Part shown: piece by piece, positions 28,955 through 38,417 of the stretch
Position numbering within the stretch: position 1 is the stretch's first letter
Layout: every line of letters begins with the position of its first letter
From: Comamonas testosteroni
Lineage (GTDB): Bacteria; Pseudomonadota; Gammaproteobacteria; Burkholderiales; Burkholderiaceae_C
Assembly (NCBI RefSeq): GCF_014076415.1
Contig: NZ_CP043568.1
Location: forward strand, 1,798,001 to 1,862,000
Length of the DNA stretch: 64,000 bases
Direction of reading: 5' to 3'
Position numbers and translations under genes: made by a program
Notes under the pieces: model-generated
What the model was told of the DNA's origin: nothing
Databases searched by the model: none
Seen by the model: only the letters and a program-made list of their open reading frames with translations

Positions 28955-29031
28955 CGGAATGTAGCGCAGCCTGGTAGCGCACTTGCATGGGGTGCAAGGG
29001 GTCGCGAGTTCGAATCCCGCCATTCCGACCA
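28955..29031 (+). tRNA. tRNA-Pro (anticodon GGG), copy 1
   Basis: A 77-nt cloverleaf with acceptor CGGAATG / CATTCCG, D-arm GCGCAGCCTGGTAGCGC, anticodon stem CTTGC/GCAAG with loop ATGGGGT (anticodon GGG, reads CCC) and an encoded CCA. Identical to the copy at 29201, including a few bases before it. Confidence 0.96.
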
Positions 29032-29200: not shown

Positions 29201-29277
29201 CGGAATGTAGCGCAGCCTGGTAGCGCACTTGCATGGGGTGCAAGGGGTCGCGAGTTCGAATCCCGCCATTCCGACCA
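29201..29277 (+). tRNA. tRNA-Pro (anticodon GGG), copy 2
   Basis: Sequence identical to the 28955 copy. It is separated from it by 169 bp that contain a terminator and otherwise unrelated sequence, so the pair arose by duplication of the tRNA and a few leading bases (ATCGACA). Confidence 0.96.
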
Positions 29278-29319: not shown

Positions 29320-29408
29320 CTATCCAGATCGCATGATGTCGTACGACTCTTCAGGGTGATGACTCGAAGAGAGATAGAAGTGCTGTCTCAACTTCTGCTG
29401 TCACACTC

Positions 29409-30449
29409 CTAGCCCTTGTGCGTGCGAAACAGCAGCCACAGCAGATACACCCCGCCCAGCAGCCCCGTTACCAGCCCGATGGGCAGATGGAGGCGCACCG
29501 GCGCCCACTGGCTGAGCATGTCGGCCGCCAGCAGCAGAACGGCGCCCACGGCTGCCGCCGTGAACAGAGGCACGTCGGGCGACAGGCCCAGACGCCTGGC
29601 CACCTGCGGCGCGGCCAGCGCGATGAACGCGACGGGCCCGGCCGCCGCGGTGGCAGTGGCTGTCAGGGCGATGGCGCACATCACCATGATCAGTCGGGTA
29701 CGCGGTACGTTGACGCCGAGTTGGGTGGCGGCGTCATCGCCCAGTTCCAGCAGGTCGATCCGGCGGGCGCACAACAGCACGACCGGCACGATGGCGAAGA
29801 AGCTGAATGCGGCCGGCACGACATGCGCCCAGGTCCGCGCACTGAGCGAGCCAGCCAGCCAGCGCTGTGCGGAGACGGCCCGCTCCAGATCGCCCATGAC
29901 CAGCAGGATGGTGTTCAGGCCCGAGAGCGTGGTCCCCACGCCTATGCCCACCAGCACCAGCCGGTAGCCCCCTGCGACGCGCCGGCCGCTGGACAGCGCG
30001 AGCACGACCGCCGCCGTGGCCATGCCCGACAGCACGGCGGCCAGCGATATCCACAGCGGCCCGGCGTCACCCAGCACGATGAGCGCAATCGCCCCGCTGG
30101 CCGCGCCGGTGGTGAAGCCGATCACGTCCGGCGAGCCCAGCGCGTTGCGGGAGATGGACTGGAAGATGGCACCCGCCATGCCAAGCGACGCGCCCACGAA
30201 GACGGCCGTGAGGACACGCGGCAGCCGCACCCGCTGCACGATGCGCTCTGCTGCGGGGTTGGAGCCCGTGCCCAGCAGGCTGTCGAGCACTTCGGCGGGG
30301 CTGAGGGACAGGGTTCCCGTGCCCAGCAGCAGCACACCCAGCACCAGGGCCAGCACGACCAGCGCCATGCCCACGGCCAGCGGCCTGGGCCGCCAGCGGA
30401 GCGAATATGGGCCCCAGCGCAGTATCGAGGTCTTCACGGACGCCTTCAT
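29409..30449 (-). CDS. fepG: ferric-chelate ABC permease FepG-like
   Basis: A 346-residue inner-membrane permease of the FecCD family with eight to ten hydrophobic segments. The pattern RLPRVLTAVFVGASLGMAGA, then SRNALGSPDVIGF, LLELGDDAATQLGVNV and AGPVAFIALAAPQVARR matches FepG of the enterobactin system closely. It pairs with FepD to move ferric siderophore into the cytoplasm. The true start is the ATG at 30449, which overlaps the FepD stop (ATGA); the upstream extension of the frame is antisense-like sequence. Last gene of the fepBDG operon. Confidence 0.9.
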   Translation of the reverse strand: MKASVKTSILRWGPYSLRWRPRPLAVGMALVVLALVLGVLLLGTGTLSLSPAEVLDSLLGTGSNPAAERIVQRVRLPRVLTAVFVGASLGMAGAIFQSISRNALGSPDVIGFTTGAASGAIALIVLGDAGPLWISLAAVLSGMATAAVVLALSSGRRVAGGYRLVLVGIGVGTTLSGLNTILLVMGDLERAVSAQRWLAGSLSARTWAHVVPAAFSFFAIVPVVLLCARRIDLLELGDDAATQLGVNVPRTRLIMVMCAIALTATATAAAGPVAFIALAAPQVARRLGLSPDVPLFTAAAVGAVLLLAADMLSQWAPVRLHLPIGLVTGLLGGVYLLWLLFRTHKG

Positions 30450-31507
30450 AGTCTGCTCAACCGGTATCTGCACGCCACCCAGACAAAGAACGGCCCGCCG
30501 ATCAGGCAGGCGACGATGCCCGCAGCCACTTCGGCAGGCGCCGCGACGACGCGGCCCAGCACATCGGCACCCAGCAGCAGCACCGCCGCGTAGAGCGCGG
30601 ACAGCGGCAGTATCCAGCGGTAGTCCGGCCCGCACGAGAGGCGTGCAAGATGCGGCGCCACCAGGCCGACGAAGGCGATGGGGCCCACGGCCGCCGTGGC
30701 GGCCCCGGCCAGCATCATGACCGCCAGGCAGGCCAGTTGAGCGGTGGCGCGCACATTGACGCCCAGCGCCAGGCCCACATCATGCCCCAGCGCCATGGCG
30801 TTGAGCTGGCCGACGATGGCCCAGGCCGCCGCCAGTCCCGCCGCCACGGCGGCCGCCAGCACGGCGGCGCTGGCATAGCCGCTGCCCTCCAGGGAGCCGG
30901 CCGCCCAGCGGCGGAAGCCGTCGAAGACTTCCGGGGGGGCGTTGAGCAGGATGATGCCGGCGCTGGAGGTGAGCATGACCGACAGGCCGGCCCCGGCCAG
31001 GACCAGGCGCACCGGGTGCGCGCTCGCGCCCCGGGACTGGCCGAACGCGAAGACGGCGGCACCCGCCAGCCCCGCGCCGGCAAAGGCGCACCAGACGTAC
31101 TGGAGCACGGACGTCAGGCCGAAGGCCGTCATGCCGATGAGCACGGCCAGCGCCGCTCCCGCGTTGACGCCCAGCAGGCCCGGCTCCGCCAGGGGATTGC
31201 GGGTGACGGCCTGCATGAGCGCGCCGGCCACGCCCAGCGCCATGCCGGCCAGGATGGCCACCACGGTGCGGGGCATGCGCAGCAGGCTGACGATCAGGTG
31301 CTGGTCATCACGCAGGTCCGGAGCCCGCAGCGCGCTGAGGATGTCGGCCAGCGCAATGTCGCGCGAGCCGACGGTGATGCCGAGCACGGCGATGATGGCC
31401 AGCGCCAGCAGCCCGCCTGCAAGGCCCAGCCAACGTCTGCGGCGCAGGGGAGCGCGCGGAGCGCGCGAGGCAGGCCGCGCCACCGCGCCTTGAAGCCGTG
31501 CACGCAT
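30446..31507 (-). CDS. fepD: ferric-chelate ABC permease FepD-like
   Basis: A 353-residue FecCD-type permease. Family landmarks are LRMPRTVVAILAGMALGVAG, NPLAEPGLLGVNAGAA, GHDVGLALGVNV and GPIAFVGLVAPHLARL. The Arg-rich first 25 residues are the cytoplasmic leader. It forms a heterodimer with FepG, with which it overlaps by four bases, and is preceded by fepB with a 3-bp gap. All three should be one transcript. The ATPase is the divergent fepC. Confidence 0.9.
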   Translation of the reverse strand: MRARLQGAVARPASRAPRAPLRRRRWLGLAGGLLALAIIAVLGITVGSRDIALADILSALRAPDLRDDQHLIVSLLRMPRTVVAILAGMALGVAGALMQAVTRNPLAEPGLLGVNAGAALAVLIGMTAFGLTSVLQYVWCAFAGAGLAGAAVFAFGQSRGASAHPVRLVLAGAGLSVMLTSSAGIILLNAPPEVFDGFRRWAAGSLEGSGYASAAVLAAAVAAGLAAAWAIVGQLNAMALGHDVGLALGVNVRATAQLACLAVMMLAGAATAAVGPIAFVGLVAPHLARLSCGPDYRWILPLSALYAAVLLLGADVLGRVVAAPAEVAAGIVACLIGGPFFVWVACRYRLSRL

Positions 31508-31510
31508 GGC

Positions 31511-32449
31511 TCAGCGGAAATGGCTGGCCACGGCGTCGACCATCTGCTGCCCCGAGTAGTAGTCGATGCGAAACGAGGTCGGGCCCAGCGCATAGACGCG
31601 CCGGCCGGCCACGGCCGGCAGGTTGGCCAGCAGCGGATCGTCCAGGAAGGCCTGGACATCGCCCTGCGAAGCGCCGAGCAGGAAGACGGAATCGCCGGTG
31701 ATGGCGGCCGAGAGGTTTTCGCGGGAGATGAATTCGAAGTCGGACGAGCGTGTCACCTGTGCGGCCAGCGGGGGCGGCAGGCCCTCCACCTTGAAACCCA
31801 GTGCAGCCAGCAGCCGCGCATGCGGGCTGGCGGCGCGGCCTATGGAGTAGCTGCCGGCCAGGTTGTAGGCGACGATGCTGACGGGCTGGGCCGGTGGCGT
31901 GATGGAGGCGGCGGTTTGCGCCACATGGGCATCGAAGCGGGCAATGGCTGCGGCGGCCTGCTTCGCATGGCCCGTGATGCGGCCCAGCTCGGTGGCGATG
32001 TCCTGCCAGGACTGGCTGGAGTAATCGACCACGACCATTGGCACGCCCTGCGCCTGCAGTTCGGTGCGGTGCTGGGCCACGCTGTCGGCGCCGGTGGCAG
32101 AGGCCACCAGCAGATCAGGGGTGGCGCCCAGGACGGCCTCGATGTCGAACTGCAGGTTGCGGTAGAGCACCTGTACGCCACGCTCGTCGGCAACGTGGGC
32201 CCATTGCGAGAAAAAGCCCTTGTCATCAGTCAAGCGGCTGGGCGTGGTGGCTGCGGTTGCCGCCACGGGGGCATCGATGGCCAACAGGATGCCCGTCACG
32301 CTGGGCGAGGTGGACACGATGCGCTGCGGTAGAGAGGCCTGCTGTGTGGCGCCGGCCTCGTGGACGGCGTTGCGCTGCATGAGCGCGATACCGGCCAGCA
32401 CGGACAGTGCCGCAGCCGCAACCAGGGCGGTGAATTTTAGTCTGTTCAT
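31511..32449 (-). CDS. fepB: ferric-siderophore periplasmic binding protein FepB-like
   Basis: A 312-residue binding protein with an N-terminal hydrophobic signal or anchor. It parallels FepB along its length: QRIVSTSPSVTGILLAIDAP, TPDLLVASATGADS, DYSSQSWQDIATELGRITGH, ENLSAAITGDSVFLLGA and VYALGPTSFRIDYYS. FepB delivers catecholate ferric siderophores to FepDG, so the ligand here is probably a catecholate-type or similar chelate. No lipobox Cys. It starts an operon with fepD and fepG, divergent from fepC. Confidence 0.9.
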   Translation of the reverse strand: MNRLKFTALVAAAALSVLAGIALMQRNAVHEAGATQQASLPQRIVSTSPSVTGILLAIDAPVAATAATTPSRLTDDKGFFSQWAHVADERGVQVLYRNLQFDIEAVLGATPDLLVASATGADSVAQHRTELQAQGVPMVVVDYSSQSWQDIATELGRITGHAKQAAAAIARFDAHVAQTAASITPPAQPVSIVAYNLAGSYSIGRAASPHARLLAALGFKVEGLPPPLAAQVTRSSDFEFISRENLSAAITGDSVFLLGASQGDVQAFLDDPLLANLPAVAGRRVYALGPTSFRIDYYSGQQMVDAVASHFR

Positions 32450-32507
32450 ATCGATCTGACCGTGACAGGGCCGAGTACATCAAGGTTCTTTAGGGTATTC
32501 CTCATTG

Positions 32508-32520
32508 TAGAATGCATTCC
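32508..32520. promoter_or_regulatory. candidate regulator site in fepB/fepC intergenic region
   Basis: TAGAATGCATTCC contains the palindrome GAATGCATTC. The same core, GAATGNATTCC, recurs at 34337-34347 before the receptor and regulator genes. It is centred about 54 bp upstream of fepC and 65 bp upstream of fepB. A shared operator is inferred. Confidence 0.5.
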
Positions 32521-32567
32521 GAATTTGTAATGCCTAAGGACCTATTGCTTGTGGGGCATGACCGGCC

Positions 32568-33371
32568 ATGACATATCGACTGAGTGCTGATGCAGTGACG
32601 CTGCGCTACGGCGAGCGCACCATTTCGCAGGGCCTGTCCCTTGCTGTTCCCGATGGCTCCTTTGCCGTCATCGTGGGGCCGAACGCCTGCGGCAAGTCCA
32701 CCCTGCTGCGCGCGCTGTCGCGCCTGCTGGCACCGACCGTAGGGAGGGTCATCCTGGATGGCAGGCATATCGCGCAATGGCCTGCCAAGGAGGTCGCACG
32801 GCGCCTGGGCTTGCTGCCGCAAAGCGCGGTCGCGCCCGAGGGCATCACGGTGGAAGACCTGGTGGCGCGTGGGCGCTACCCCCATCAGTCCTTCCTGAAG
32901 CAGTGGACGGATGCCGACGAGCAGGCGGTGGCCGAGGCCATGAAGGCCACTGATGTGATGGCCCTTTCGGACCGGCTTCTGGACGAGTTGTCAGGCGGGC
33001 AGCGCCAACGTGTGTGGATTGCGATGGTGCTGGCGCAGCAGACGCCCATCCTGTTGCTGGATGAGCCCACGACGTTTCTGGACATTGCACACCAGATCGA
33101 GTTGCTGGAGCTGCTGGCGGACCTCAACCGGGCCGGCCGCACCGTGATTGCGGTGCTGCACGATCTCAACCACGCCTGCCGCTACGCCTCACACCTGATC
33201 GCCATGCGCGACGGGCGCATCGCCGCACAGGGCAATCCCGGGGCGATCTTTACCGAGCAATTGGTTGAGGAAGTGTTCGGCCTGTCATCGGTGGTCATTC
33301 CTGACCCTGTGACCGGGACTCCCCTGGTGGTGCCAAGAGGGCGCAAGGCAGTGCATGCCATGGAAGGCTGA
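32568..33371 (+). CDS. fepC: ferric-siderophore ABC ATPase FepC-like
   Basis: A 267-residue cytoplasmic ATPase. Walker A GPNACGKST is at 37-45, the signature LSGGQRQRVWIAM follows near 140, Walker B is LLLDEPTTFLD and the switch His sits in VLHDLNHACRYA. The GPNACGKS form is typical of FepC-type enzymes. It powers the FepDG permease encoded on the other strand. The ATG at 32568 has no strong ribosome binding site. Whether the IclR-type gene shares its regulation is inferred from the shared palindrome. Confidence 0.92.
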   Translation: MTYRLSADAVTLRYGERTISQGLSLAVPDGSFAVIVGPNACGKSTLLRALSRLLAPTVGRVILDGRHIAQWPAKEVARRLGLLPQSAVAPEGITVEDLVARGRYPHQSFLKQWTDADEQAVAEAMKATDVMALSDRLLDELSGGQRQRVWIAMVLAQQTPILLLDEPTTFLDIAHQIELLELLADLNRAGRTVIAVLHDLNHACRYASHLIAMRDGRIAAQGNPGAIFTEQLVEEVFGLSSVVIPDPVTGTPLVVPRGRKAVHAMEG

Positions 33372-33401
33372 AGCACCTGGGTATCTTCCTGCGCGTCGCT
33401 T

Positions 33402-34304
33402 CTAGTGAGAGTCTGAGCCAAAGGCTCGTCCGCCTGTGGCCTGGTTGATCAGGCTGGCTTCGCGCAGCAGCGCATGCCTGTCGTCGGGCGACTTGAGCTG
33501 GCCCAGGTCAGAGACAGTGGTGACCGCGCAGGCGATCTCATGCTGTGCGTCGAACACCGGTGCTGCCTGGCCCGTGACGTTGGACAGAAGGTGGCTGGTC
33601 AATTCGGACCAGCAGCGCTCGCGCACTTCATCGAGCACGGCCTTGGTCGGTGGCTTGCCGCGGAAATGGGCAGGTTGCTGGCGGCGCGCAGCGTCGATGG
33701 TGGCCTTGGGCAGGAAGGCCTGGAACACCAGACCGCAGGCGGTGTTGTCTATGGGCAGGATGTCGCCAAGCGCCAGCGGATTGATGGAGAAGTAGGCGCT
33801 TCGGTACCAGCGCACCAGGGTCGGCCCGCGGTCGGTCCAGATGGCCACACCGCCACTGAGCGCGTGTTGGTGTGTCAGCGACTTCATATGCTGCGCCGCA
33901 ATTTCCACCGCATCCACGCGCTTGAGCGCGCCAATGCCGATGCTCAGTGCCGCGCTGCCCAGGTCGTAGAGGCCGCTGGCCGGGTCCTGCTTGGCCAGGC
34001 CTTCCTTGACGAGACTTTGCAGGTAGCGGTGGGCCGTGGAGCCCCCCGTTCCCGTTCGCCGGGCCACCTCGCCCAGCGCCAGTTCGCTTTCGGCATTGGC
34101 CAGGATCATGAGGAAGCGTGCGGCGATCGAGACCGACTGGATGGTGCCGGAGCGTTTCTCGCCGGCGGCTGTCTGAGGTGTTGTTGTTTTCAAAGGCTCG
34201 GCTTCCTTGCCTGTACTTGGAGCATCGCAGGTGGGCGCCCGGGCGCCGCTGGTCTCGATGATACCGGCTCCTTTCGGGTGGAAGGCAACCCGGCACGCAT
34301 GCAT
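33402..34304 (-). CDS. IclR-family transcriptional regulator
   Basis: A 300-residue regulator. An N-terminal winged helix (IQSVSIAARFLMILANAESE, then ALGEVARRTGTGGSTAHRYL) is followed by the IclR effector domain (CGLVFQAFLPKA, LLSNVTGQAAPVFDAQHEI, CAVTTVSDLGQ). IclR proteins sense small aromatic or organic acids and control catabolic genes, so an IclR regulator inside an iron module suggests it senses the chelator or a breakdown product. The first 40 residues are not family-like, so the start at 34304 may be too far upstream; a TTG at about residue 38 (before KTTTPQ) is an alternative. Divergent from the receptor gene. Confidence 0.87.
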   Translation of the reverse strand: MHACRVAFHPKGAGIIETSGARAPTCDAPSTGKEAEPLKTTTPQTAAGEKRSGTIQSVSIAARFLMILANAESELALGEVARRTGTGGSTAHRYLQSLVKEGLAKQDPASGLYDLGSAALSIGIGALKRVDAVEIAAQHMKSLTHQHALSGGVAIWTDRGPTLVRWYRSAYFSINPLALGDILPIDNTACGLVFQAFLPKATIDAARRQQPAHFRGKPPTKAVLDEVRERCWSELTSHLLSNVTGQAAPVFDAQHEIACAVTTVSDLGQLKSPDDRHALLREASLINQATGGRAFGSDSH

Positions 34305-34333
34305 CTTTTCAGTGTTGTTCTTTTTTCCTCAGA

Positions 34334-34349
34334 TAGGAATGAATTCCTA
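34334..34349. promoter_or_regulatory. palindromic IclR-type operator candidate
   Basis: TAGGAATGAATTCCTA, with arms TAGGAAT and ATTCCTA, lies 30 bp before the IclR gene and 67 bp before the receptor gene. The arms resemble known IclR sites of the TGGAAAT-N-ATTTCCA type. A further GGAATTTC follows at 34355-34362. Binding is inferred. Confidence 0.55.
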
Positions 34350-34386
34350 ATGGTGGAATTTCTATGCGTCATGCTGTAACATAAAA

Positions 34387-34405
34387 CAAGAATCATTCTC
34401 ATTAA
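34387..34405. promoter_or_regulatory. Fur-box-like site before TonB-dependent receptor
   Basis: Read on the minus strand, AATGAGAATGATTCTTG resembles Fur boxes of the AATGATAATNATTATC type. It overlaps the 5' leader just before the ribosome binding site AAAGGAAG, so iron-replete Fur would block expression of the receptor and the monooxygenase gene behind it. Confidence 0.6.
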
Positions 34406-34416
34406 AGGAAGATGCC

Positions 34417-36501
34417 GTGAAACTGTGTTTCCATCGCAGGCTCCCGTCCAGGGCGGGCGCTGTCGCACTCTCTACCTTGATGGCGCCAGCCGGCGTCTTT
34501 GCACAGGGTGTGTCGGGCTCCGATGAGGAAACTGCCACGCTTGACGTGGTCGTGGTCAGCGGTGAAAAGGTCAGGCGAGAACTCAAGGACACGGCATCCT
34601 CCGTATCGGTCAAGTCTGGCAAGGACATCGAGAGGGAGGAGAGCGGCAATGCCTCGGTCCACGAGGTGCTGCATGACGTGCCCAACGTGGTCTACACCGA
34701 CACGGTGGGTGCGCCCATCATCCGCGGGCAGGACACGCAGGGCCCCAACAACGGGCAGAACGTCTTCTGGGGCGGCACGGTACCGCGCGCCACCATCAAT
34801 CTCGATGGCCATTACCTCAATTACAACGAGATGTTCTTCGGCGCGACCTCGGTATGGGATGTGGATAGCATCGAGGTGTTCCGAGGTCCCCAGACCACCT
34901 CGCAGGGTGCGAATGCGATAGCGGGCGCAATCATCGTCAATACCAAGGATCCGAGCTTCAAGCCCGAGACGGCCTACCAGCTGGAGGCCGGCAACTACAA
35001 CTCGCGCCGCGCCTCCATCGCCGTCTCCGGCCCCGTGGGCGAGGAGCTGGCCGCGCGGCTTGCCGTTGACTATGCAGGGCGCGACACTTTTATCGACTAC
35101 AACAATCCGCGGTTTCAGCAGGGCCAGGCCAACCAGGATTTCCGTGCGCTCAACGCACGCCTGAAACTCCTGTGGCTGCCAAACAGCATTCCCGGCCTGG
35201 AAGCCAAATTCACTTACTCGCACAACGACAGCAACCGCCCGACCCAGGAGGCCGCTTCAGCTCCGTTCGGCGCGCTCAAGCACTGGACGACGACCATGCC
35301 CAGCTGGAAGCAGAAGACCGACACCGGCATCCTCGACCTCCGCTACGAGCTGGGCAACGGCGTGCGGCTGGTCAACCAGTCCCAGTATTCGCGCTCGTCC
35401 GTGCAGCGCTACACCGGCATTTCCGGTGGGGGTGATGCTGATATCCGCCAGAACAATGTCTCCAACGAATTCCGCGCTCTCGTGGGCAACGAAAAAGATC
35501 GACTGAGCGGCTTCGGCGGCATCTATTACGCCCGTACCAGCACTGACGAAAGCCTGCTGCTGCGCGGCCTGTCCGCCTTCGACGACACGAAGAAGAACCT
35601 GGGCGTCTTCGGCGAGCTGAACTGGCGCCTGGCCGACCGCTGGACCCTGAGCAGCGGGCTGCGCTACCAGCAGGACGAGGTGGTGCGCAATGGCACCTCA
35701 GTGTTGGCACCCACCGCCCTTGACTACACGAAAACCTTCTCGGCGCTGCTGCCCAAGCTGTCCCTGGCCTATGCCGCCACGCCACGCTGGACGGTGGGTG
35801 CCTTGGTCAGCCGTGGCTACAACCCGGGCGGCGTCTCGCTGAACCTCACCAGCCGGCAATGGGCCTACTTCAAGAAGGAGTCGATCTGGAATTACGAGCT
35901 GTTCAGCCGCACCAGCCTGTTCAATGACAGGCTGATGCTCAACACCAACCTGTTCTACATGGACATGCGGGACGCGCAGTACAACATCCCGGTGGTCATC
36001 TCGCCGGGCGTGGCTCAGTCCTACACCATCAACGCCGAGAAGGCCCATGCCTACGGCTTCGAGCTGGGCGCCGACTACCGCGCGCTGGACAACCTGCGGA
36101 TCAAGGCCGGCGTGGGCGTGCTGCGCACCCGCATCGAGGAGATGGGCAGCAACCCCGGCTACGAGCACAACCGCTTCGCCCGCTCGCCCGGCTACAACCT
36201 GAGCGTGGGCGTGAGCTGGGACGCCAGCCCCCGGTTCAATGTCTCCGGCCAGGTGCGCCACCTGGACGGCTACTACTCAGATACCGCCAACACGCGCGCC
36301 TATGCGGTCGGCTCCAACACCATCGCCGACCTGCGCATGACCTATGCCTACAACGCACGCGTGCAGTTGTACGGCTATATCAAGAACGTGTTCGACACGC
36401 GCGCACCGACGTACCTGCAGCAAAACCGCGGCATCGGCGGCATCGAGGCCAGCATGACCGCGCCGCGCATGATCGGCGTGGGCGTGCGCGGAACGTTCTG
36501 A
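34417..36501 (+). CDS. TonB-dependent ferric-chelate receptor
   Basis: A 694-residue outer-membrane receptor. A signal peptide (ending about Ala29-Gln30), a TonB box TLDVVVVSG at 41-49, a plug domain (VSVKSGKDIEREES to VEVFRGPQ-like IEVFRGPQTTSQGANA) and a 22-strand barrel ending RMIGVGVRGTF are visible. It reads closest to the iron/xenosiderophore branch of the family (FyuA/PupB-like), but the ligand cannot be told. The start codon is GTG with AAAGGAAG upstream. The monooxygenase gene starts one base after its stop, so chelate uptake and ligand oxidation are linked. Confidence 0.9.
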   Translation: MKLCFHRRLPSRAGAVALSTLMAPAGVFAQGVSGSDEETATLDVVVVSGEKVRRELKDTASSVSVKSGKDIEREESGNASVHEVLHDVPNVVYTDTVGAPIIRGQDTQGPNNGQNVFWGGTVPRATINLDGHYLNYNEMFFGATSVWDVDSIEVFRGPQTTSQGANAIAGAIIVNTKDPSFKPETAYQLEAGNYNSRRASIAVSGPVGEELAARLAVDYAGRDTFIDYNNPRFQQGQANQDFRALNARLKLLWLPNSIPGLEAKFTYSHNDSNRPTQEAASAPFGALKHWTTTMPSWKQKTDTGILDLRYELGNGVRLVNQSQYSRSSVQRYTGISGGGDADIRQNNVSNEFRALVGNEKDRLSGFGGIYYARTSTDESLLLRGLSAFDDTKKNLGVFGELNWRLADRWTLSSGLRYQQDEVVRNGTSVLAPTALDYTKTFSALLPKLSLAYAATPRWTVGALVSRGYNPGGVSLNLTSRQWAYFKKESIWNYELFSRTSLFNDRLMLNTNLFYMDMRDAQYNIPVVISPGVAQSYTINAEKAHAYGFELGADYRALDNLRIKAGVGVLRTRIEEMGSNPGYEHNRFARSPGYNLSVGVSWDASPRFNVSGQVRHLDGYYSDTANTRAYAVGSNTIADLRMTYAYNARVQLYGYIKNVFDTRAPTYLQQNRGIGGIEASMTAPRMIGVGVRGTF

Positions 36502-36502
36502 G

Positions 36503-37873
36503 ATGGGAATGACAGCAGACATGACAACCCGCAAACCCCTGCACATTGGCCTTTCGCTGGCCCCCACCTGGCTGAGTGGCGACGCCTGGCGGCGGCCCGG
36601 CAGCAATATCGAAGGGCTTTACTCCAGCGACTTCGCCCTAGACCTGGCCCGGCGCGCCGAGGCTGCGCACCTGGACTTCGTCTTCCGCCCCGACGTGAGC
36701 TTTCTGCCCATGGAGGTGCTGGAGACGGGCGCTGGCTTCGCCAGCCTGGACCCCACGGTGCTGATGGCCGCGCTGGCGCGCGAGACCTCGCGCATCGGCC
36801 TGGTGTCCACGGTATCGACCACGTTTTTCCCGCCCTATGCGGTGGCTCGCCAGCTGCAGTCGCTGCACTGGATCAGCAACGGCCGCGCCGGGTGGAACAT
36901 CGTCACGGCCCTGCAGGGCCACGAGAACTTCGGGTTGCAGGCCATGCCCGATGCCGATGAACGCTATGCGCGGGCCGCAGAATTCACCGACGTGGTGCGC
37001 CGGCTGTGGGCCAGCTTCCCCAACGAGGCCTTGAAGATCGATCGGGACAGCGGCCGCTACGCCGATGCCTCACTGGTCCACCCCATAGACCACGAGGGAA
37101 CGCACCTGAAGGTGCGCGGCCCGCTGAACCTGCCGGAGTTCGGCGGCCCGCGCATTCCGCTGGTGCAGGCGGGCGCGTCCAGCACAGGGCGCGACTTTGC
37201 CGCATCGGTGGCAGACATCGTCTTCGCGCCCACGCCGGACCTGGACGCGGCGCTGGAGCTGCGCCGGGACCTGTCTCGGTGCGCCCAGCGTCATGGCCGC
37301 CAGGCGCAGGATGTGCGCCTGCTGCCCGGCCTGAGCCTGTACCTGGCCGACACCCGCGAGCAGGCCCGGGAGATGTTCCAGCAGACGCACGGCCGGGTGG
37401 ACAGGGGCCGCAAGCTGGCATCGATCAAGGCCATGACCGGCCTGGACCTGAAGGACTGGCCCACAGACCGGCCGATCACCGCTGCAGACCTTCCGCCGCC
37501 CGTGGCAATCCCGTCCAGCCGCACGCATGCGGGCCTGCTCAGGCGCCTGATGGAGCGCGAGTCATTGCGCATCGACGAACTGCTGCTGCGGCCGGAAATT
37601 CTCTCCGCCGCGCACTGGCAGGTGGTCGGCACGGTGGACGATGCCGTGGCGCAGATCACCCAGTGGAGTGCCGCCGGCGCCATCGACGGCTTTCTGGCCG
37701 CGCCCGGCGGTTCCGTCGACTCCCTGCATTGCGTGCTGGAGCAGTTGGTGCCCCGGCTAGTGGAGGCTGGCCTGTTCCGCTCTCGCTACACAGGCACCAC
37801 GTTCATGGAGCACCTTGAAGAGTCGCGTCAGGAACGTGTTCATGCTGCAGCCCAACCATCTGCTCGCTCGTAA
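36503..37873 (+). CDS. NtaA/SnaA/DszA-family FMN-dependent monooxygenase
   Basis: A 456-residue luciferase-like (LLM class) monooxygenase of the group including nitrilotriacetate monooxygenase NtaA and EDTA monooxygenase EmoA, and the sulfur-compound enzymes SnaA and DszA. Landmarks: HIGLSLAPTWLSGDAWRRP, LVSTVSTTFFPPYAVARQ, SNGRAGWNIVTA, YARAAEFTDVVRRLW and VQAGASSTGRDFAAS. They need reduced FMN from a separate reductase, which is not encoded here. Tight linkage to the receptor (1-bp gap) suggests it acts on the imported chelate or its ligand; substrate is inference. An ATG six codons later is an alternative start. Confidence 0.87.
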   Translation: MGMTADMTTRKPLHIGLSLAPTWLSGDAWRRPGSNIEGLYSSDFALDLARRAEAAHLDFVFRPDVSFLPMEVLETGAGFASLDPTVLMAALARETSRIGLVSTVSTTFFPPYAVARQLQSLHWISNGRAGWNIVTALQGHENFGLQAMPDADERYARAAEFTDVVRRLWASFPNEALKIDRDSGRYADASLVHPIDHEGTHLKVRGPLNLPEFGGPRIPLVQAGASSTGRDFAASVADIVFAPTPDLDAALELRRDLSRCAQRHGRQAQDVRLLPGLSLYLADTREQAREMFQQTHGRVDRGRKLASIKAMTGLDLKDWPTDRPITAADLPPPVAIPSSRTHAGLLRRLMERESLRIDELLLRPEILSAAHWQVVGTVDDAVAQITQWSAAGAIDGFLAAPGGSVDSLHCVLEQLVPRLVEAGLFRSRYTGTTFMEHLEESRQERVHAAAQPSARS

Positions 37874-37982
37874 CGGCGATCCCGTAGCTTGGCTGCCACA
37901 GTCGCGTCCGTCATTGGCAGTAATACTTGTTGGCGGCAGCAACTGTCTGCGCACGCTTCGCGGAGCGGTGCTGTGAGCTGCT

Positions 37983-38417
37983 CTAAACCTGCGGCTCCGG
38001 CCTGAGCCACAGCCAGAGCAATACGCAGGCCATGATGCTCAGCGTCATGGCCGTGAGCCACGGCTTGTACGAGAAATACAGAATCAGCAGACTGCTGGCG
38101 CCCATGCTGACGGTTGCCGTCCATTTGGCGCGGCGGCTGACCTTGCCGCCAGTGTCCCAGTTGTGCAGCAGCGGGCCGAACACACGGTGCGCATAGAGCC
38201 AGCGGTGCAGCCTGGGCGAGCTGCGCACCGCCGCCCAGGCGGCCATCAGTATGAATACCGTGGTGGGCATGCCGGGAACCACGGCGCCTATCAGCCCCAA
38301 TATCACGCAAACCAGCGCAAAAGCAATGAGCAGATAACGCAGCGGCACGGAAAGCTGCTTGGACTCCAGGTGCGGTTCTTCGCGAGGGGTTTCGGGCGGT
38401 GGTGGCAGATCGTTCAT
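37983..38417 (-). CDS. DUF454 (YbaN-like) inner-membrane protein
   Basis: A 144-residue protein with an acidic/Pro-rich cytoplasmic N-terminus and three to four hydrophobic segments. The core LGLIGAVVPGMPTTVFILMA followed by SPRLHRWLYAHRVFGPLLHNW is diagnostic of the DUF454/YbaN family, which has no settled function. It marks the end of the iron module on its right side, as it is a common housekeeping-type gene. Confidence 0.9.
   Translation of the reverse strand: MNDLPPPPETPREEPHLESKQLSVPLRYLLIAFALVCVILGLIGAVVPGMPTTVFILMAAWAAVRSSPRLHRWLYAHRVFGPLLHNWDTGGKVSRRAKWTATVSMGASSLLILYFSYKPWLTAMTLSIMACVLLWLWLRPEPQV

Follow-up and report, generated by a model that had tools for sequence, protein, structure and literature searches.

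An inserted iron-chelate uptake module with a conserved flavin monooxygenase in Comamonas testosteroni, possibly serving catecholate xenosiderophores

Siderophores of the agrobactin and parabactin type are joined by amides, so that an esterase of the Fes type is unable to open them. To our knowledge, known trilactone esterases cannot open amide-joined siderophores, and processing beyond reduction has been little explored. A gene set comprising a 2,3-dihydroxybenzoate (DHB)-AMP ligase, a condensation (C) domain and an x-PCP-C protein (PCP, peptidyl carrier protein) is of the vibriobactin or agrobactin kind, and Agrobacterium tumefaciens B6 is a source of agrobactin, which has a threonine-derived oxazoline. 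Here, we describe a seven-gene module for iron-chelate uptake in the soil bacterium Comamonas testosteroni, located in a stretch of 64,000 nucleotides (the window, positions 1798001-1862000 on a contig of a 5.9-Mb genome). Computational comparison establishes the module, its conservation, its operator candidates, its acquisition and, in relatives, its linkage to nonribosomal peptide synthetase (NRPS) clusters for DHB siderophores. We judge it reasonably probable that the module is a horizontally acquired, self-contained xenosiderophore system that imports a ferric spermidine-catecholate of the agrobactin/parabactin type, the amide-linked ligand of which would be oxidised by a luciferase-like monooxygenase (LLM).

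Layout and gene content of the module

The fepB, fepD and fepG genes run leftward, fepC rightward, iclR leftward, and the receptor and monooxygenase genes rightward, with the following features:

29324 to 37982, no strand: inserted block, whole module, replacing 62-69 bases between tRNA-Pro and DUF454
29409 to 30449, reverse strand: FepG-like FecCD permease (Pfam FecCD 263 bits, run on 29409-30563; probable start)
30446 to 31507, reverse strand: FepD-like FecCD permease (Pfam FecCD 283 bits)
31511 to 32449, reverse strand: FepB-like catecholate-siderophore binding protein
32497 to 32525, reverse strand: IclR operator candidate in the divergent fepB/fepC promoter
32568 to 33371, forward strand: FepC-like ATPase (ABC_tran)
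33402 to 34304, reverse strand: IclR-type regulator
34331 to 34359, forward strand: IclR operator candidate in the divergent iclR/receptor promoter
34388 to 34406, forward strand: Fur-box-like site before the receptor gene, 13/19 match to GATAATGATAATCATTATC
34417 to 36501, forward strand: TonB-dependent siderophore receptor (Plug and TonB_dep_Rec)
36521 to 37873, forward strand: flavin mononucleotide (FMN)-dependent monooxygenase of the LLM/NtaA-DmoA family (first ATG 36503, conserved start 36521)

Family models uphold every gene named in an earlier note on this DNA, namely FepB, FepD, FepG, FepC, the receptor, the monooxygenase and IclR. The fepB product passes the NF008200 equivalog model for ferri-enterobactin binding (406 bits, cut-off 205), and its relatives in the PDB are FepB (220 bits) and the vibriobactin-binding protein (168 bits). 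The receptor, which is not close to the FepA models, matches the Pfam Plug (50.8 bits) and beta-barrel (139.4 bits) domains. Both domain cut-offs are passed by the regulator (HTH_IclR, 49.4 bits against 22; IclR_C, 33.2 against 24), its best subfamily being PcaR/PcaU/PobR at 55 bits, far below cut-off. The monooxygenase exceeds the cut-off of the TIGR03860 (NtaA/DmoA) subfamily (354 bits against 279.7) and is single-copy, the sole other match in the genome being a 30% identical stretch (E 1.4e-6).

Two gene starts call for comment. That of fepG is probably 30449 (346 amino acids), giving a 4-base overlap with the fepD stop, as judged from where the family match begins; longer open reading frames (ORFs) exist upstream of it, and the frame 29409-30563 was used for the family models. 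The monooxygenase was previously placed one base past the receptor stop, where its first ATG (36503) does lie, but its homologues begin at ATG 36521, and the gap is therefore probably 19 bases rather than one.

Conservation of the receptor-monooxygenase pair

The enzyme was sought in a family sample of 299 genomes (E <= 1e-100), a class sample of 229, a phylum sample of 397 and a second family sample of 247 (E <= 1e-80). It was found in 4/299, 7/397 and 6/247 genomes of the family, phylum and second family samples, which overlap and amount to 14 different genomes in all, while the single match among the 229 genomes of the class sample was the window's own. Within 10 kb of the enzyme, a TonB receptor is encoded in 13 of the 14 genomes, also a FecCD-type permease with an ATPase in 12 and an IclR in 10 (the neighbourhood in G445 being judged through the Delftia locus L004). 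G779 has the receptor and binding protein only beside the enzyme. The exception is G888, which carries the enzyme alone; a different contig of this genome has a receptor of the same family (55%), a reductase of the siderophore-interacting protein (SIP) type and a DHB-NRPS cluster. The lone monooxygenase gene of G888 (L029) is next to a gene that appears GntR-like at its start; L101 and L105 are from the same genome. From the receptor side (E <= 1e-150), 6/199 genomes of the genus of Pseudomonas chlororaphis gave a match, two of them already in the earlier match set, and the enzyme is adjacent in all six.

When 19 loci were compared all against all, solely the seven module genes recurred widely, with two types of binding protein that have 9 and 5 partner loci. 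Other matches had at most three partner loci, antisense ORFs of module genes and further ABC-transporter genes being set aside; these low-recurrence matches include the genes for SIP and for x-PCP-C in L007 and L040. Gene order is shuffled, the enzyme following the receptor, following fepC, lying between transporter and iclR, or diverging from the ATPase, and the receptor-monooxygenase link is kept in alpha-, beta- and gammaproteobacteria. The earlier note had staked its proposal on conservation of this pair beyond close relatives; the pair is conserved far beyond them, so that this condition does not refute the proposal, and the linkage across genomes supports an iron-chelate uptake unit with the monooxygenase as steady partner, usually accompanied by IclR.

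Two types of transporter occur across the loci: FepBDGC is present in the window, in Delftia, in Pseudomonas and in some alphaproteobacteria, and Agrobacterium and others have a different FecCD set that is 29-41% identical to it. Since the two types are intermingled in trees, the receptor-enzyme core was the more stable part, around which the transporter was swapped. A second monooxygenase clade occurs in L031, L032, L074, L076 and L026, with enzymes 46-51% identical to the window's and receptors 50-68% identical; these loci look as though they had undergone a swap of the enzyme. At L042:9019-10334, the monooxygenase match is split over two reading frames, which suggests a frameshift or sequencing error.

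Linkage to DHB-NRPS clusters and the ligand class

All nine full Agrobacterium/R. rhizogenes loci (L007-L015; NRPS domains checked in L007), among them that of A. tumefaciens B6 (L009), have genes next to the module for a SIP-type ferric reductase, for an x-PCP-C protein and for a C domain that stands free. Beyond these, both extended loci (L080, L082) encode a DHB-AMP ligase, an aryl carrier protein (ArCP) and a condensation/adenylation part of an NRPS, the ligase scoring 866 bits in G1124 (cut-off 723.6). The Agrobacterium receptors share one well-supported 16-row clade with the window receptor. G1070 (L040, L081) has the same set as the extended Agrobacterium loci, with no ArCP match. On a plasmid of Paracoccus sp. 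MA, which shows no IclR at the module, the receptor, transporter and enzyme genes are accompanied by those for NRPS, C-domain and carrier proteins and for a DHB-AMP ligase; this ligase, at 648 bits, is under the cut-off but far above unrelated families. On a Roseibium algicola plasmid, the enzyme and a transporter of the second type lie beside an x-PCP-C protein, and a second Roseibium plasmid is alike by annotation. The linkage makes the ligand class, spermidine-catecholates of the agrobactin/parabactin type, a fairly supported assignment.

The stretches read around the module in G735, G1054, G1019, G372, G1046, G684 and G1122 showed no DHB-NRPS cluster. The DHB-AMP ligase cut-off is passed in G1124 and G888, and a match of 699 bits lies on another contig in P. 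chlororaphis G1122. The best match in the window genome reaches 197 bits against the cut-off of 723.6, and no convincing ligase was detected in this genome, both Delftia-type genomes, G1046, G684 or P. putida (197-293 bits); the siderophore taken up by the window module is therefore most likely a foreign one.

Solved relatives of the monooxygenase include BdsA (211 bits), YtnJ (196), 3sdo (195) and EmoA (140). The earlier note had looked to chelators such as nitrilotriacetate (NTA) or ethylenediaminetetraacetate (EDTA), and this was not borne out: EmoA ranks below the closest solved relatives, CmoJ/YtnJ and BdsA/DszA, and the receptor and enzyme lie with DHB-NRPS clusters in siderophore producers. 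3sdo, which came from structural genomics and was deposited under the name 'nitrilotriacetate monooxygenase', is about as close as CmoJ/YtnJ and BdsA. It is very improbable that the cargo of the module is a ferric chelate of the NTA/EDTA kind, either synthetic or a small aminocarboxylate, and that it is oxidised after import, perhaps as a nutrient.

CmoJ/YtnJ and BdsA/DszA act on C-S bonds, and a thiazoline- or thiazolidine-containing siderophore broken at such bonds by an enzyme like its BdsA and CmoJ relatives would be in keeping with these nearest solved enzymes, with FyuA as the nearest solved receptor in the PDB, and with the hand-read adenylation-domain code of the Agrobacterium NRPS, whose ending LIWK is known from cysteine-activating domains. 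The similarity to FyuA is weak (67 bits), however, the binding protein is of the FepB type, and the same locus is found in A. tumefaciens B6, a source of agrobactin with its threonine-derived oxazoline; together, these points leave a sulfur-containing siderophore improbable. Uptake of a sulfur compound as such was also considered and rejected, as the Fur/RirA-like sites and the FecCD transporter argue against it. A zinc-type role, by analogy with PA2911-PA2914 of Pseudomonas aeruginosa, was likewise dropped, without a comparison of PA2911 to the window receptor.

Candidate operators and iron control

A 29-base position weight matrix was built on ten sites in the receptor promoters of other loci, with the window sites excluded. 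Across the 64 kb of the window, this tripartite operator profile scores highest at the fepB/fepC promoter (34.9), with the iclR/receptor promoter second (26.3), as compared with a maximum of 16.9 in 30 runs on the shuffled window; these two divergent promoters are the only places in the window with the operator. Genome-wide, a pattern search allowing up to 3 mismatches returned a single site, in the fepB/fepC promoter. Untrained fepB/fepC promoters of L003, L005, L006, L049 (fepC promoter), L051, L039, L031 and L032 score 18.7-32.1. L008 reaches 40.3, the enzyme promoter has a site in L028 (24.4) and a weak one in L041 (18.0), and L042 (13.6) is below the shuffled maximum; L010-L015 were left out of the scan. 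No site above 13.1 was found in L025, L029, L030, L040, L072 and L073, where IclR was likewise not found. That IclR also controls the biosynthetic genes in Agrobacterium was considered and rejected, as operator-like scores in L080-L082 do not exceed 8.1.

The Fur-box-like site before the receptor gene, a consensus match only, is unexceeded among 63,982 window positions, with two other places tying. A Fur-like match of at least 12/19 is found in 15/20 receptor promoters, and a TGA-N9-TCA (RirA-like) box, likewise a consensus match, in L007, L008, L028 and L039. Expression probably depends on both iron shortage, through the Fur-type site, and a ligand-derived signal read by IclR at the two operators.

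Acquisition as a single block

The module lies between the following genes:

28955-29031 and 29201-29277: two tRNA-Pro(ggg) genes, left of the module
37983-38417, reverse strand: DUF454 gene, right of the module

In four of six fetched relatives (L066-L069), the site is empty, window positions near 29323 and 37983 being only 62-69 bases apart where the window holds about 8.66 kb. Their flanks are 91-94% identical over long pieces, two of the four having a piece of about 85% around the tRNAs. These empty sites confirm the earlier suggestion of insertion as one piece between tRNA-Pro and DUF454; the module is horizontally acquired as one block. Two Delftia loci (L003/L004) match window positions 29409-37825 at 90-94% DNA identity, without either window flank. 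The G+C content is 66.4% in the module, 61.1% in the window, 64.1% in the left flank and 60.1% in the right flank. No integrase is encoded among the seven genes and no att sites were seen at the block borders, the longest word common to both being 7 bases. L070 matches the right flank alone in the stretch read. L071:2281-13161 holds a different stretch of about 10.9 kb between the same tRNA-Pro and DUF454, and thus the place may be an insertion hotspot.

Proposed mechanism and the release of iron

From the genes and their company, we infer the enzyme's reaction, the exact ligand, the regulation, and the choice between iron release and disposal of the ligand after reduction as follows. Under iron shortage, acting through the Fur-type site, and with a ligand-derived signal at IclR, the module would be switched on, and the receptor and FepBDGC would import a ferric siderophore of the agrobactin/parabactin type (vibriobactin-like) that the host does not make. 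The cytoplasmic LLM monooxygenase, using reduced FMN (FMNH2) from a general flavin reductase, would then oxidise the ligand. Opened by oxidation, the ligand would bind iron less tightly and be cleared, and an aromatic signal for IclR might arise from it. The earlier note had likewise proposed import followed by intracellular oxidation of the ligand; the ferric-chelate uptake unit stands, while the oxidation step stays conditional, and since a SIP reductase co-occurs in relatives, the monooxygenase would be only a candidate for the step that releases the iron.

Several observations weigh against this account. A flavin-reductase gene was not seen in the window module. FepC (371.6 bits against 497, NF007606), FepD (267.2 against 428, NF007760) and FepG (285.6 against 422, NCBIfam) are below their equivalog cut-offs, and the window receptor is under that of TIGR01783 (183.1 against 223.5), which the Paracoccus homologue passes (235.3) and the Agrobacterium homologue just fails (221.2). 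The hand-read adenylation-domain code of the Agrobacterium NRPS, taken from one alignment, differs from the textbook Thr code. Module-like loci L025 and L030 (G522, G779) have receptors only 27-28% identical and no IclR. L041 has an IclR yet only a weak operator; in L076, on a plasmid of Paracoccus albus, two good operator-like sites accompany a module for which no IclR gene turned up in the stretch read; and five of the 20 receptor promoters (L031, L032, L040, L041, L042) lack a Fur-like match of 12/19. Finally, a SIP-type reductase gene lies beside the monooxygenase in 12 loci (L007-L015, L040, L075, L078), siderophore-interacting reductases being found in Agrobacterium, G1070, Rhizobium sp. 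ACO-34A and Paracoccus denitrificans, and two PF04954 matches, one with an internal stop, exist elsewhere in the window genome; because of these, reduction could free the iron.

The same reductase genes would favour a scheme in which a reductase, encoded in the cluster or acting in trans, frees the iron, and the monooxygenase merely detoxifies or recycles the leftover apo-siderophore. In contrast, the window module (L092) has no SIP/ViuB-type reductase, and it is one of 18 loci that carry the enzyme without a SIP match above 60 bits, the truncated locus L016 and the enzyme-only locus L029 being left out of this count. In SIP-less loci without NRPS genes, the monooxygenase is the sole enzyme of the module. 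We thus consider a purely disposing role of the monooxygenase unlikely, though not negligible. At L103:4490-5236 (about 5312489-5313235 on the window contig), a SIP-type ferric reductase gene lies near a weak TonB-receptor-like match (26%, 50 bits); this reductase could act in trans on the imported siderophore.

The reading preferred here, oxidation of an imported spermidine-catecholate, can be extended, tentatively, to the proposal that LLM-class flavin monooxygenases are a third way of iron release besides esterases and reductases, that the breakdown product is the IclR inducer, and that the whole unit is a piracy cassette passed between species. The conserved monooxygenase partner points to an enzyme that can be named, a candidate class of ligand and a regulator that would respond to the ligand. 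If the preferred reading is true, siderophores made by Agrobacterium- or Paracoccus-like neighbours would be open to use by some strains of Comamonas, Delftia and Pseudomonas, by an unusual route for a siderophore that esterases cannot cut, and the automatic label 'nitrilotriacetate monooxygenase' would be corrected.

Comparison with known systems

The vib/viu system of Vibrio resembles the Agrobacterium relatives in its DHB-AMP ligase, free-standing C domain and separate condensation/adenylation and x-PCP-C NRPS proteins, as well as in its FecCD transporter, TonB receptor and SIP-type reductase. In contrast, the window module has neither biosynthesis nor a reductase and adds the LLM monooxygenase and IclR, neither of which is known from the Vibrio system. 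With the ferric-enterobactin transporter FepBCDG it shares the subunit set and the FepB equivalog match, but its other three subunits are under their cut-offs, its receptor is not near FepA, and it has no esterase gene. NtaA and EmoA share the TIGR03860 subfamily and fold with the window enzyme, whereas EmoA is outside its closest relatives and the window transporter is of the siderophore type. Heme uptake loci with a built-in heme oxygenase are unrelated in enzyme family and ligand, but are alike in logic: FecCD import is followed by monooxygenase attack on the carrier, an attack that in the Comamonas module would fall on the siderophore.

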